From Aureimonas jatrophae (GTDB taxonomy: Bacteria; Pseudomonadota; Alphaproteobacteria; Rhizobiales; Rhizobiaceae), in NCBI RefSeq assembly GCF_900104035.1, contig NZ_FNIT01000019.1:1-33674 (forward strand): a DNA stretch of 33,674 nt, read 5' to 3'. The position numbers and the translations under genes are program-made. How positions within the stretch are numbered: the first letter of the stretch is position 1; the number at the start of each line of letters is the position of its first letter. Positions 7,781-32,010 of the stretch are shown here, in pieces. A model generated the notes under the pieces. That model was not told the DNA's origin. It saw nothing but the letters and a program-made list of their open reading frames with translations, and searched no databases.

Positions 7781-7791
7781 ATGCAGTGCAA
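7781..7791. promoter_or_regulatory. Putative operator, EPS motif copy 1 (imperfect)
   Basis: ATGC-AGT-GCAA, with one mismatch to TTGC-N3-GCAA and the right-hand extension CATA shared with the copy before the algD-like gene. It lies 77 bases upstream of gmd and about 106 upstream of the divergent Wzy-like gene, so it could serve both. The binding protein is unknown. Confidence 0.4.
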
Positions 7792-7876
7792 CATACGTCC
7801 TGCGGACTGCAATGCACCGGCGGCTGTTTCTGGCGTCTTGGTGTATGGACGGCCTCGGCAACAGGAGACCCGTCTC

Positions 7877-7900
7877 ATGCGACGGTTGCGAACACGATGA
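7877..7900 (+). CDS. Possible seven-codon leader ORF
   Basis: An ATG at 7877 opens a seven-codon frame (MRRLRTR) whose stop TGA overlaps the ATG of the Wzy-like gene as ATGA. GGAG about 10 bases upstream is a better ribosome site than anything directly before the downstream gene. The leader could deliver ribosomes to that start by coupling. It is very short and may be chance. Confidence 0.3.
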   Translation: MRRLRTR

Positions 7901-9255
7901 GCTTAGCGATCCGGCATGCTCCTCGTTCCAGCCGGCTGCAACGTCCCGCCGATACGACCCATGTCCTGCGGACGTATCTTGACGGCTACATCCTCGTCAC
8001 CTCGCTGTTCGCGACGTTCTTCTTCGACCTGCGCGGCACGGCCGAGATCGCCTCGCTGGGCTCGACGGCGATCTGGGCCGACGACCTTGTGACGCTCGGG
8101 CTGGGACCGCTTATCGTCTTCTGCCTCGGAGCCCGGAACCGGTTGCCTCTGGCGATCTCCCTGTTCATGGGCATCTACGCGATCGCCCTCCTGCGAGGAC
8201 TGGCGATCGACCCGCTCAAGACCTTTCTCGGCTTCAGGCTCGACACCGTCTTTTTCGCGTTGATGCTGTCGGTCATGACGGGCGGCATCGAGAGGCTCGG
8301 CTATCGCCGCGTCGTCCAGATCTTCACGGGCTTCGGAATGGCCGTCTGCGCGCTCTCGCTTTTGCGCAACGTGTTCGGTTTCGAACTCTTCGCCGCGACC
8401 GAGTGGACGACGATTCCCGGCGTTCTCTACAACGACGGTCGAACGGTGAACGCCTTCTCGGTGCTTCTGCTGTCGATTGCGGTCGTCCTGCGCATCTGCG
8501 TGCGCATCGAGACCCAGCCGCCCGGTGAGCATCGCTTCCGCTTCGACGCGATCTCGACCCTTTTTGTTCTGGCACTCCTGCTGTCGGGGCAGCGAACCGC
8601 GTCGATCGGCTTGGCCTTGGCGCTTGGCTTCATGCTCTGCAATCGTTATCGCGGGCTGACCTACGTCGTCGTCCCGCTGATCGTCGGAACGTTCCTGACC
8701 CTTGCTCTGACGCGCACGCCGATCGATGCCTCGTTGATCGAGGGAGCCGCCGCGCAATACGGCAAGGGCGGTACCTTCACCTACCGCACGCTGATCTGGA
8801 CGGGACTTCTCGAGAACATCTCGACCTGGTCGACGTTCGATTATCTGTTCGGCATGCCAGTCGGTGTGCGTCCATCCTACTACCTGTTCACATCCACCCA
8901 CACGCGACTGTGGGGCGGCTCGATCCACAGCGCCTATCTCGGAACGATCGTGAATGCGGGCCTGATCGGCAGCATCATCCTGTTCTCGATCTACATCTGG
9001 CGTACGCTCGTCGCCTACATCGGCTACGTGACCTACTCGCCCCGCCGGTCTCGCTTCTCGCCAGAGCTGCGCCTCTGCCTTTCTATGCTCGTGCTGGTTC
9101 TTGGCTTCAGCTACGAATGGCGAGGACTCAACGGCTTCGCGATGGGCGTGATCTTCGCGCTACCCTATAGCCGTTCCACCCGAGTGGGCCGCCCGCCGGT
9201 ACGATCCCATAACGGGATGGCCATACCTCTTCAGGGAAGAAGCAACCTCGCCTGA
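7897..9255 (+). CDS. Wzy/O-antigen ligase-like membrane protein (copy 1)
   Basis: This polytopic inner-membrane protein of 452 residues has around ten or more hydrophobic spans. A larger periplasmic loop near residues 280-345 ends in a segment with IHSAYL followed by a span, resembling the H-[NS]-x-[YW]-L region of O-antigen ligases and Wzy polymerases (PF04932 type). Such proteins join lipid-linked repeat units on the periplasmic side. The frame extends upstream to 7786, but that part lacks hydrophobic or conserved character and would overlap the promoter motif. The ATG at 7897 is chosen; its own ribosome site is weak, and the short leader frame ending at ATGA may feed it. Polymerase versus ligase cannot be decided from sequence. 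Confidence 0.82.
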   Translation: MSLAIRHAPRSSRLQRPADTTHVLRTYLDGYILVTSLFATFFFDLRGTAEIASLGSTAIWADDLVTLGLGPLIVFCLGARNRLPLAISLFMGIYAIALLRGLAIDPLKTFLGFRLDTVFFALMLSVMTGGIERLGYRRVVQIFTGFGMAVCALSLLRNVFGFELFAATEWTTIPGVLYNDGRTVNAFSVLLLSIAVVLRICVRIETQPPGEHRFRFDAISTLFVLALLLSGQRTASIGLALALGFMLCNRYRGLTYVVVPLIVGTFLTLALTRTPIDASLIEGAAAQYGKGGTFTYRTLIWTGLLENISTWSTFDYLFGMPVGVRPSYYLFTSTHTRLWGGSIHSAYLGTIVNAGLIGSIILFSIYIWRTLVAYIGYVTYSPRRSRFSPELRLCLSMLVLVLGFSYEWRGLNGFAMGVIFALPYSRSTRVGRPPVRSHNGMAIPLQGRSNLA

Positions 9256-9348
9256 GGAGGACTCGGCCGAGGCTTCCGATTTCGAGACAGTTCGGGGGCG
9301 ACGGTTGCTCCATACCCGCCGCAACGAGTGCGCGGGTCTCCCGACCTG

Positions 9349-30374: not shown

Positions 30375-30512
30375 CGTCGCCAACTCCCTACCATCACATC
30401 ACTCTCAACCTCTGTATGACGAGGTTTGCTTACGGCTGCATCCCAGTTCGCACGTCAAGGTGAAAAGGGATGAAGCGTTGGTTGTCCGTTCGTCGCTCGC
30501 ATTGCGTCGCGG

Positions 30513-31934
30513 TCATGGACGTGCGGCCGCAACCCGGTCGACCGCTGCCTTCTGCTTCAGGCCGAGCAATACGGCGAGCACCGCAGCCTCCCGCTTCAAT
30601 CCCCAGAGCGCCAGTCCCAACGACAGAAGCGGGAGGACCCAGACCGGTAGTCCGAGTTCAGCGTGGAAGAGGGACGCGCTTGCCAATGCAATAGCCGCCA
30701 AGACCGGGACCATCCTGCGGACGGAATGGGGCACCGGCGCGATGCGTTGTGAGACCAGGCGGGCGATCGTTGCATTGGTCACGAAGACGGCCAACCGCGC
30801 GATCGCTGCGCCGGTCGCCGCGATCATCTGGACGAGGGGAATGCCGACCAGCAGGAGTGCCGCACTACCGCACGCGACGATCAGGGCATTGAGATGGGTC
30901 TTCTTCTCACGCAGACCGCCAATGTTCAGCACGATCGCGAGTGTCTGAGGGACGATCGCGATCGTCAGGACGAAGAACACCGCCGGGTGGAACTCCAAAC
31001 CGGGGAACAGATACGGCCATAGAAGCGGCGTTGCGGCGAACGTCACCAGAAGGAGCAGAGACAAGGCGATCAGCAGCAAGGACACGACGCCCTGAAAGAA
31101 CTGGGCTTCCGCGGCCGTGTCCCGGCGCATCGCTTCCACCGCGAACCACAAGTTCAGCGGCGTGACGGTCAAGACCGCCAGGATCCCCGTCAGGCGCTGG
31201 TGCGCCGCATAGGACGCGACGACGCTCAGGTCCGTTTGGAACGTCGCCAGCAGGAAGCGATCACCGCTGGACGTCAGCATTCCGACAAGGGCTGATCCGG
31301 CAATCGGCAGGCCGTAGCGGACCATCCGCCAAACCAGCGTCCGGTCCCAGACTGGGCGGACCCCCAGTCGAAGCGCGACAAACAGGACGGCGGAGACCGT
31401 GAAGACGCCGCGAAGCACGAGCAGTTCGTTGATGCTTCGGACCCAGGCAAGGCCCAGCTGGAGCGCCAGGCCCGCGACCAGCACAAGGCCCAGCGAGCGG
31501 ATCGCCTCGAAGGTGATCCAGGCGCCCAGGCGACGCTGCCCTCGCAAACTGGATATGATCAGGAGCGCCAGCGTCTCCGCGACCAACGGCAGGACGAGAT
31601 TGGCGTAACCAACGCCCGGTAGCCAATCCCGGGCCAAGAGCCACGCGACGCTTGCCAAGCCGAAGGACACGGGAAGAGCGACGACAAAGGCCGCACTGAG
31701 ATTCCGACGCGGATCACTCGCCTGGCTCGCCGTCGTGAAGAGCACGCCGTACTGTATTCCGAGTGCGCCGACCGTGCCGAAGATCAGAAGGAGAGGCTCG
31801 ATCAGCGCCCATAGGCCGAACGCCTCGATGCCCAAGCCTCGTACGAGGACGAGTGTCATCAGGAGGTTCGATCCGGCGGGAAGGGCAGCGATCGCCACGA
31901 AACCCAGCGGCTTGGCAAGACGCGACAGCTGCAA
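30513..31934 (-). CDS. Wzx-like oligosaccharide flippase (copy 2)
   Basis: This 473-residue protein has about 12-14 hydrophobic spans, starting LGFVAIAALPAGSNLLMTLVLVRGLGIEAFGLWALIEPLLL and carrying SGDRFLLATFQTDLSVVASYAAHQRL, as in MOP-superfamily flippases. The start is TTG at 31934 with AAGGA 8 bases upstream; no suitable in-frame ATG is near. It differs clearly from copy 1. A perfect ATATTGC-N3-GCAATAT palindrome lies 60 bases upstream, so this gene, perhaps with the acyltransferase and GT2 genes 130 bases beyond, has its own regulated promoter. Confidence 0.88.
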   Translation of the reverse strand: MQLSRLAKPLGFVAIAALPAGSNLLMTLVLVRGLGIEAFGLWALIEPLLLIFGTVGALGIQYGVLFTTASQASDPRRNLSAAFVVALPVSFGLASVAWLLARDWLPGVGYANLVLPLVAETLALLIISSLRGQRRLGAWITFEAIRSLGLVLVAGLALQLGLAWVRSINELLVLRGVFTVSAVLFVALRLGVRPVWDRTLVWRMVRYGLPIAGSALVGMLTSSGDRFLLATFQTDLSVVASYAAHQRLTGILAVLTVTPLNLWFAVEAMRRDTAAEAQFFQGVVSLLLIALSLLLLVTFAATPLLWPYLFPGLEFHPAVFFVLTIAIVPQTLAIVLNIGGLREKKTHLNALIVACGSAALLLVGIPLVQMIAATGAAIARLAVFVTNATIARLVSQRIAPVPHSVRRMVPVLAAIALASASLFHAELGLPVWVLPLLSLGLALWGLKREAAVLAVLLGLKQKAAVDRVAAARP

Positions 31935-31993
31935 GGCTCATTCCTTATGCGACGACCGGGTCCCCGTGCCGCATCTTCTATACTGCGCCTACC

Positions 31994-32010
31994 ATATTGC
32001 AACGCAATAT
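31994..32010. promoter_or_regulatory. Putative operator, EPS motif copy 4 (perfect)
   Basis: ATATTGC-AAC-GCAATAT, perfect 7-bp arms around a 3-base spacer, is the best copy of the repeated motif. It lies 60 bases upstream of flippase copy 2 and 77 bases after the stop of the RTX gene. Confidence 0.6.

Follow-up and report, generated by a model that had tools for sequence, protein, structure and literature searches.

Which regulator could unite the dispersed transcription units of an exopolysaccharide (EPS) gene cluster, several of which are preceded by a TTGC-N3-GCAA palindrome, is the question raised by contig NZ_FNIT01000019.1 of Aureimonas jatrophae. The window analyzed here is the whole of this contig (33,674 nt; contig 22 of 25) and represents about 0.7% of the 4.59 Mb genome. 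The cluster encodes a GDP-mannose dehydratase, Wzy-like proteins, a GT4 glycosyltransferase, a flippase, a Wzc-type chain-length kinase and a nucleotide-sugar dehydrogenase, together with a rhamnosyltransferase, a Wza-type export protein and GT2 enzymes. TGC-rich palindromes recall PhaR of the alphaproteobacteria, a likeness that provided the starting lead and was then tested. PhaR (AniA) is described in the available text of PMC12542648 and PMC6201568 as a repressor that binds poly-hydroxybutyrate (PHB) granules, the granules freeing its targets. We propose that four palindromes of the window and a weaker fifth are, very probably, PhaR operators that would repress EPS genes and be released as PHB accumulates, a proposal that combines sequence comparison with analogy to characterized PhaR systems.

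Window positions were scored with a symmetric 21-base matrix built from 19 of the 20 Sinorhizobium meliloti sites lying on promoters graded as Efficient PhaR binders in Table 3 of PMC12542648 (part of that paper being available), one poor exoH site being excluded. With this matrix the training sites (n = 19) range from 13.3 to 29.1 bits, and eight weak binders outside the training set from 11.9 to 23.2 bits. The identity of the sites and their intergenic position were computed directly. When all window positions were ranked, the four palindromes of the original prediction occupied ranks 1 to 4: box 1 (7776..7796; 20.2 bits), between gmd on the minus strand and a Wzy-like gene on the plus strand; box 2 (10457..10477; 21.3 bits), upstream of the GT4 gene; box 3 (16068..16088; 20.9 bits), upstream of an algD-like gene; and box 4 (31992..32012; 13.2 bits under the S. 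meliloti matrix, 18.9 bits under one of Aureimonas phaP sites), upstream of the open reading frame (ORF) 30513-31934. Rank 5 corresponds to a weak intergenic site absent from that prediction, box 5 (27247..27267; 12.7 bits), located between the rhamnosyltransferase gene (minus strand) and the polysaccharide export gene (plus strand), and ranks 6 (28132) and 7 (7506) fall, by coordinates, within the export gene and gmd. The maximum per shuffled window (n = 200) had a median of 11.0, a 95th percentile of 15.8 and a 99th percentile of 17.4 bits; hence boxes 1 to 3 are individually significant and box 4 alone is not. Five sites of at least 12 bits lie in the 3920 bases of intergenic DNA of the window, against a shuffle mean of 0.08 and a largest count of 2 (n = 1000). 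Matrices made from the Aureimonas phaP sites alone or from the exoY-like sites alone, neither including a window site, placed the same four at ranks 1 to 4. The YGCRNYGCR core (GC-N3-GC) fits boxes 1, 3, 4 and 5; box 2 is off at one R, yet it is the top-scoring site. AT-rich arms as in S. meliloti are found under the 21-base matrix, boxes 4 and 5 being weak there. A second perfect core, TGCAATGCA, at 7808..7816, 26 bases from box 1, has GC-rich arms and a matrix score of −1.7.

The palindrome itself had been reported as three exact copies, at 10462-10472, 16073-16083 and 31997-32007, and one copy with a single mismatch at 7781-7791. All of them are present and intergenic, at 76, 45, 30 and 62 bases from the starts of gmd (7704), the GT4 gene (10416), the algD-like gene (16114) and ORF 30513-31934, respectively. 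The exact copies in the window number five, not three: those at 16232-16242, in the algD-like gene, and 21767-21777, in a Wzy-like gene, had been overlooked. These two are not PhaR-like (−13.4 and −2.7 bits), and by lying within genes they contradict, for the bare pattern, the claim that all copies occupy promoter positions. Shuffling gave a mean of 0.38 exact copies and a largest count of 2 (100 shuffles). With up to one mismatch allowed the excess is less clear, 18 copies against a mean of 11.5, with 1 of 100 shuffles reaching 18. Genome-wide, there are 45 occurrences of the bare 8-base pattern, fewer than of its reversed control (109); among the first 15 of the 45 places, classed with our own gene caller, 10 are intragenic, so that the genome-wide check put forward with the palindrome leans toward its refutation. 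Since two of the five window copies and these 10 of 15 genomic places are intragenic, and since the reversed control is commoner, the bare pattern is unfit as an operator definition and was rejected as the motif. Copies whose arms are AT-rich and whose core resembles TGC-RNY-GCA do show operator-like behaviour. What stands, by computation, is the idea of operators of one regulator uniting dispersed EPS units, and that regulator can be named as PhaR. A shared GCAA[CT]ATA flank is present at three of the four sites; the site at 31997 reads GCAATATC.

A single PhaR gene is present in the genome, on contig 10, with domains PF05233 and PF07879 (PHB_acc and PHB_acc_N) and a TIGR01848 equivalog score of 141.9 bits (cut-off 109.45). 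It is divergent from thiolase and short-chain reductase genes, which we take to be the layout of phaAB-phaR loci. Boxes were also found at a short phasin gene (phaP; 25.0 bits, centre 60 bases upstream of the start), at the PHB depolymerase gene (phaZ; PF06850, TIGR01849; 17.3 bits) and at an exoY-like sugar transferase gene (PF02397; 18.0 bits, centre 427 bases upstream of the start). By analogy with mmgR of S. meliloti, a small RNA was sought beneath the exoY-like box (locus L136), with no Rfam match up to E 1. A loose PhaR pattern is in excess in the genome (40/31, against 21/21 for the reversed control). When 51 places of this pattern were scored, all eight at 17 bits or above were intergenic, versus 9 of the 43 below (Fisher 3.8e-5), the 17-bit threshold being chosen post hoc, the genes coming from our own codon-usage script, with called neighbouring genes scarce or absent at 2 of the 9. 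The eight are at phaP, a sugar-binding regulator gene, the GT4 gene, a DUF3563 gene, a place on contig 23, gmd/wzy, the exoY-like gene and phaZ; the algD box (20.9 bits) falls outside the loose pattern. The genome contains at least nine strong boxes, four of the nine at EPS genes and three of those on the window contig. This list is a lower bound because it is pattern-based: one pattern gave at least 100 places, and the loose pattern missed the algD box. A sequence-only profile for genome scans was dropped; it caught the phaP box and box 1 and missed boxes 2 and 3 and those of phaZ and DUF3563.

The genome has further boxes. One of 21.5 bits (L098:1017-1037, also L267, on contig C5) lies 27 bases before the gene of the sugar-binding regulator (PF04198), which is followed by kinase-like and dehydrogenase-like genes with ABC transporter genes alongside, as judged by eye. 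Another, of 21.1 bits (L021:1495-1515; C23:664760), precedes a gene for a 52-residue DUF3563 protein, a possible PhaR target, and one of 20.9 bits (L133:1004-1024; C23:290500) has no evident target and is followed by a weak ORF of 69 residues. A PhaR-like box of 13.9 bits stands about 275 bases upstream of an ar14 small RNA (L127:621-739, minus strand; Rfam 74.4 bits).

The association of the box with phasin genes extends to the genus. A box was found at 20 of the 30 phasin loci scanned, one each in 20 of 21 genus genomes (our own included), and the other 10 loci had none; in this count 11 of 41 places were without a locus, the one of our own genome (L048) being scanned among these. All the boxed loci are of the short type, with scores of 21-28 bits and box centres that precede the predicted start by 19-74 bases. 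The consensus of the Aureimonas phaP boxes is TTTTTGTGCAGTGCAATATAT, and GCAATAT occurs in the boxes of all 20 boxed phaP loci. The GCAA[CT]ATA flank is a local flavour of the PhaR box. Genome G003 has PhaR, yet no box was found at its sole phasin match or at either of the two exoY-like loci scanned in it, possibly the sign of a decayed PhaR regulon.

The genes for priming transferases provide a further set of loci. A box of at least 11 bits within 700 bases was found at 17 of 18 Aureimonas exoY-like loci (14 of 18 at 14 bits), G003 being the sole miss, whereas column-permuted matrices (n = 300) gave a mean of 0.86 and a largest count of 12. Outside this count are a locus at a contig end (L150), weaker matches (L164, L165, L170-L174), places without a locus, and paralogs or second copies (L166, L167, L168 and L169), none of these last four with a box of 11 bits or more. 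Beyond the genus, plasmid exoY loci were scanned with a matrix built without the S. meliloti exoY site, and 13 of 16 loci, picked for species spread among 60 matches listed of 227 records, carry a box (permuted mean 1.1, largest 12). They belong to Sinorhizobium, Ensifer, Rhizobium, Shinella, Neorhizobium and Paracoccus, and in most of them the box precedes the matched stretch by about 310-370 bases; the three loci without a box are from R. gallicum, P. marcusii and S. kummerowiae. Two cores exactly 18 bases apart occur in tandem at 12 of the 13 boxed non-Aureimonas loci (L269-L274, L277-L281 and L283, the pair standing about 310-370 bases upstream of exoY) and at 0 of the 17 boxed Aureimonas loci. 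This tandem is not stated in the available text of PMC12542648, whose Table 3 gives one exoY site; besides that paper, the literature search on PhaR sites at exoY gave an unrelated one. In a tree of priming transferases (midpoint root, long branches flagged, L276 dropped as too short) the boxed Aureimonas genes form two groups. One joins the ExoY of Sinorhizobium, Rhizobium and Shinella and the second stands apart, which points either to retention over a long time or to recruitment on several occasions.

Taking S. meliloti and B. diazoefficiens as models for binding of PhaR, repression and release by PHB, the following mechanism can be proposed for the window. Free PhaR would sit on the boxes of gmd/wzy, the GT4 gene, the algD-like gene, the rhamnosyltransferase/export pair and ORF 30513-31934, and would keep EPS synthesis low when PHB is absent. 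Under carbon excess PHB would accumulate and its granules would draw PhaR off the DNA. The EPS genes would then be released along with the phasin and PHB depolymerase genes, so that slime (EPS) is probably made when stored carbon is plentiful.

Conservation of the window's own sites had been put forward as a check on their function. The named genome collection holds a single relative of the GT4 protein, from Aureimonas pseudogalii DSM 102238 (74%), the only close relative found with the cluster; the same-genus genome G010 is probably A. pseudogalii, because a stretch of it shows identical box contexts and an equal identity to the window over the algD region. In this relative the algD box stands at an unchanged distance but is weaker (13.1 bits), and the stretch between algD and the Wzc-type gene at the head of a co-directional wzc-flippase-GT4 run contains boxes of 16.8 and 11.8 bits. 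The gmd and GT4 boxes are absent from it. Comparison of the sequences thus indicates that the window's own sites are poorly conserved and that conservation is mixed. Boxes of 14.8-21.6 bits stand upstream of UDP-glucose/GDP-mannose dehydrogenase homologs in four other genomes of the genus (L075-L078; G006, G004, G001 and G018).

Several observations weigh against PhaR control of the cluster. No box lies upstream of the gmd ortholog of G010 (91% identical) or of the GT4 gene in the cluster relative. Within the genome itself, no box was found at the phaR locus (best 4.3 bits), at the second phasin gene (L048; best 3.7 bits) or upstream of the second exoY copy, which is cut by the left end of the window. 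Scored with the S. meliloti matrix, the boxes at 31992 and 27247 fall in the range reached by the best single positions of shuffled windows, and in the core at 10457 a T occupies a position that is R in the consensus of S. meliloti and Bradyrhizobium. Scans for consensus sigma-70-like promoters, as a −35/−10 overlap, found none at any of four boxes. On the tree of priming transferases the presence of a box is weakly clustered, with 5 changes against a shuffled mean of 6.6, and 40 of 500 shuffles gave a value as low.

Could the palindromes then be a product of chance or base composition? The abundance of the bare pattern in the genome, below that of its reversed control and largely intragenic at the places examined, goes in that direction, and the two weak sites, 31992 and 27247, could be chance. 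Against this stand the three strong sites, intergenic and above the 99th percentile of shuffled maxima with the 21-base matrix, and the excess of the loose PhaR pattern over its own reversed control, which leave chance a scarcely credible explanation for the set. A different regulator, for instance an EPS-specific repressor of another family, could bind a similar TTGC-N3-GCAA sequence, the likeness to PhaR sites being coincidental; TTGC and GCAA half-sites are simple, and the window sites share GCAA[CT]AT flanks. Nevertheless, GCAATAT is present in every boxed Aureimonas phaP locus and at phaZ, and both the phaP-only and the S. meliloti matrices select exactly the window sites, which makes such a regulator very improbable.

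It is unlikely, though less so than either of those, that the sites are genuine PhaR sites at which PhaR activates some promoters or has no effect in vivo. The published systems, as far as the available text of the two papers goes, provide arguments on both sides. Some PhaR-bound promoters of S. meliloti defy simple repression, and wgeA is weakly bound and unregulated (PMC12542648); in B. diazoefficiens many genes bearing the consensus are activated (PMC6201568). On the other hand, exoH, exoL and exoY of S. meliloti are bound and repressed (PMC12542648), and the exoZ operon of B. diazoefficiens rises without PhaR (PMC6201568). PhaR-mediated repression, relieved by PHB, stays the proposed function of the window boxes.

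The genes that flank these boxes were assigned as follows. The gene gmd (6637..7704, minus strand) encodes a GDP-mannose 4,6-dehydratase (PF16363; TIGR01472 above cut-off), and the Wzy-like membrane protein encoded opposite to it (7897..9255, plus strand) has a Wzy_C match under the cut-off; its start comes from our own gene caller, the longest ORF beginning at 7786. The GT4-type glycosyltransferase gene (9349..10416, minus strand; Glyco_trans_1_4 / Glyco_trans_4_4) is followed along the window by the flippase gene (10505-11758) and the algD-like nucleotide-sugar dehydrogenase gene (16114..17427, plus strand; PF03721/PF00984/PF03720, TIGR03026 above cut-off). Box 5 is flanked by the genes for a putative rhamnosyltransferase (26416..27231, minus strand; PF11316) and the Wza-type polysaccharide export protein (27462..28673, plus strand; PF02563, SLBB). 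ORF 30513..31934 (minus strand), labelled flippase copy 2 in the original prediction, matches no Pfam or NCBIfam family and is not significantly similar to the flippase at 10505-11758, and that label is not maintained. The cluster holds three Wzy/ligase-like genes, at 7897-9255 (under the Pfam cut-off), 21254-22585 and 22604-24136, which suggests that the cluster makes at least two polymers or is a composite. At the right end of the contig (32087-33673, minus strand) lies a large gene with beta-helix and RTX repeats, and ABC transporter and HlyD genes are found at 717-3780; its product is possibly a type I secreted polysaccharide-modifying enzyme. The left edge cuts the second exoY-like gene (window 3-383, minus strand), which matches the C23 copy (C23:454181-454768) at 92% identity across residues 35-117, and further exoY-like pieces are at C21:49353-49553 and C19:71100-71171 (contig end). 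The assembly break may stem from near-identical exoY copies, since such pieces occur at contig ends and on several contigs.

A full-text search of the available literature gave no paper with both Aureimonas and PhaR, and among the matches listed for Aureimonas and exopolysaccharide none was, by title, on a PhaR link; one paper mentions both Aurantimonadaceae and polyhydroxybutyrate. With PhaR, a motif that had no explanation acquires a named, testable regulator, and the PHB-to-EPS switch would be extended from root-nodule bacteria to Aureimonas. If this is true, EPS output in these bacteria would be predictable from PHB metabolism, and whether the PHB-EPS coupling is ancestral or was repeatedly acquired would be testable through PhaR boxes at different EPS loci. 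We lean slightly toward regarding this coupling via PhaR as a general design rule of Rhizobiaceae type, in which the priming transferase of each lineage has kept or gained a box; the variable EPS cluster of the window would then be a fresh recruit with five boxes.

The comparison with known systems is limited here to the available text of the papers cited. The B. diazoefficiens PhaR consensus, TGCRNYGCASMA, was derived with footprints (PMC6201568, PMC10888616), and in that bacterium EPS about doubles without phaR, an exoZ-containing operon being a target (PMC6201568). The window boxes differ from this consensus in having A at its S (C/G) position, 10457 being also off at R, and the EPS targets of B. 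diazoefficiens differ from those of the window. The PhaR proteins of Paracoccus denitrificans and Rhodobacter sphaeroides, cited in PMC10888616, resemble the present case in their repeated TGC half-sites, and an EPS target is not mentioned for them in the available text of that paper. A close likeness is with S. meliloti, for which the motif WNWDDNYGCRNYGCRNHHWNW and its sites are listed with gel-shift results (PMC12542648). The arms differ, GCAAYAT being found here and GCACAA and GCAGCA being common there, and so do the targets, which include exoH, exoL, exoY and wgaA in S. meliloti and are gmd/wzy, the GT4 gene, the algD-like gene, rhamnosyltransferase/wza and ORF 30513-31934 in the window. 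Both share the TGC-RNY-GCA palindrome with AT-rich arms, a protein of the PhaR family, and boxes at phasin, PHB depolymerase, exoY and other EPS promoters. Since S. meliloti and Bradyrhizobium are already documented to control EPS through PhaR, Aureimonas would be a new member of a known regulon.

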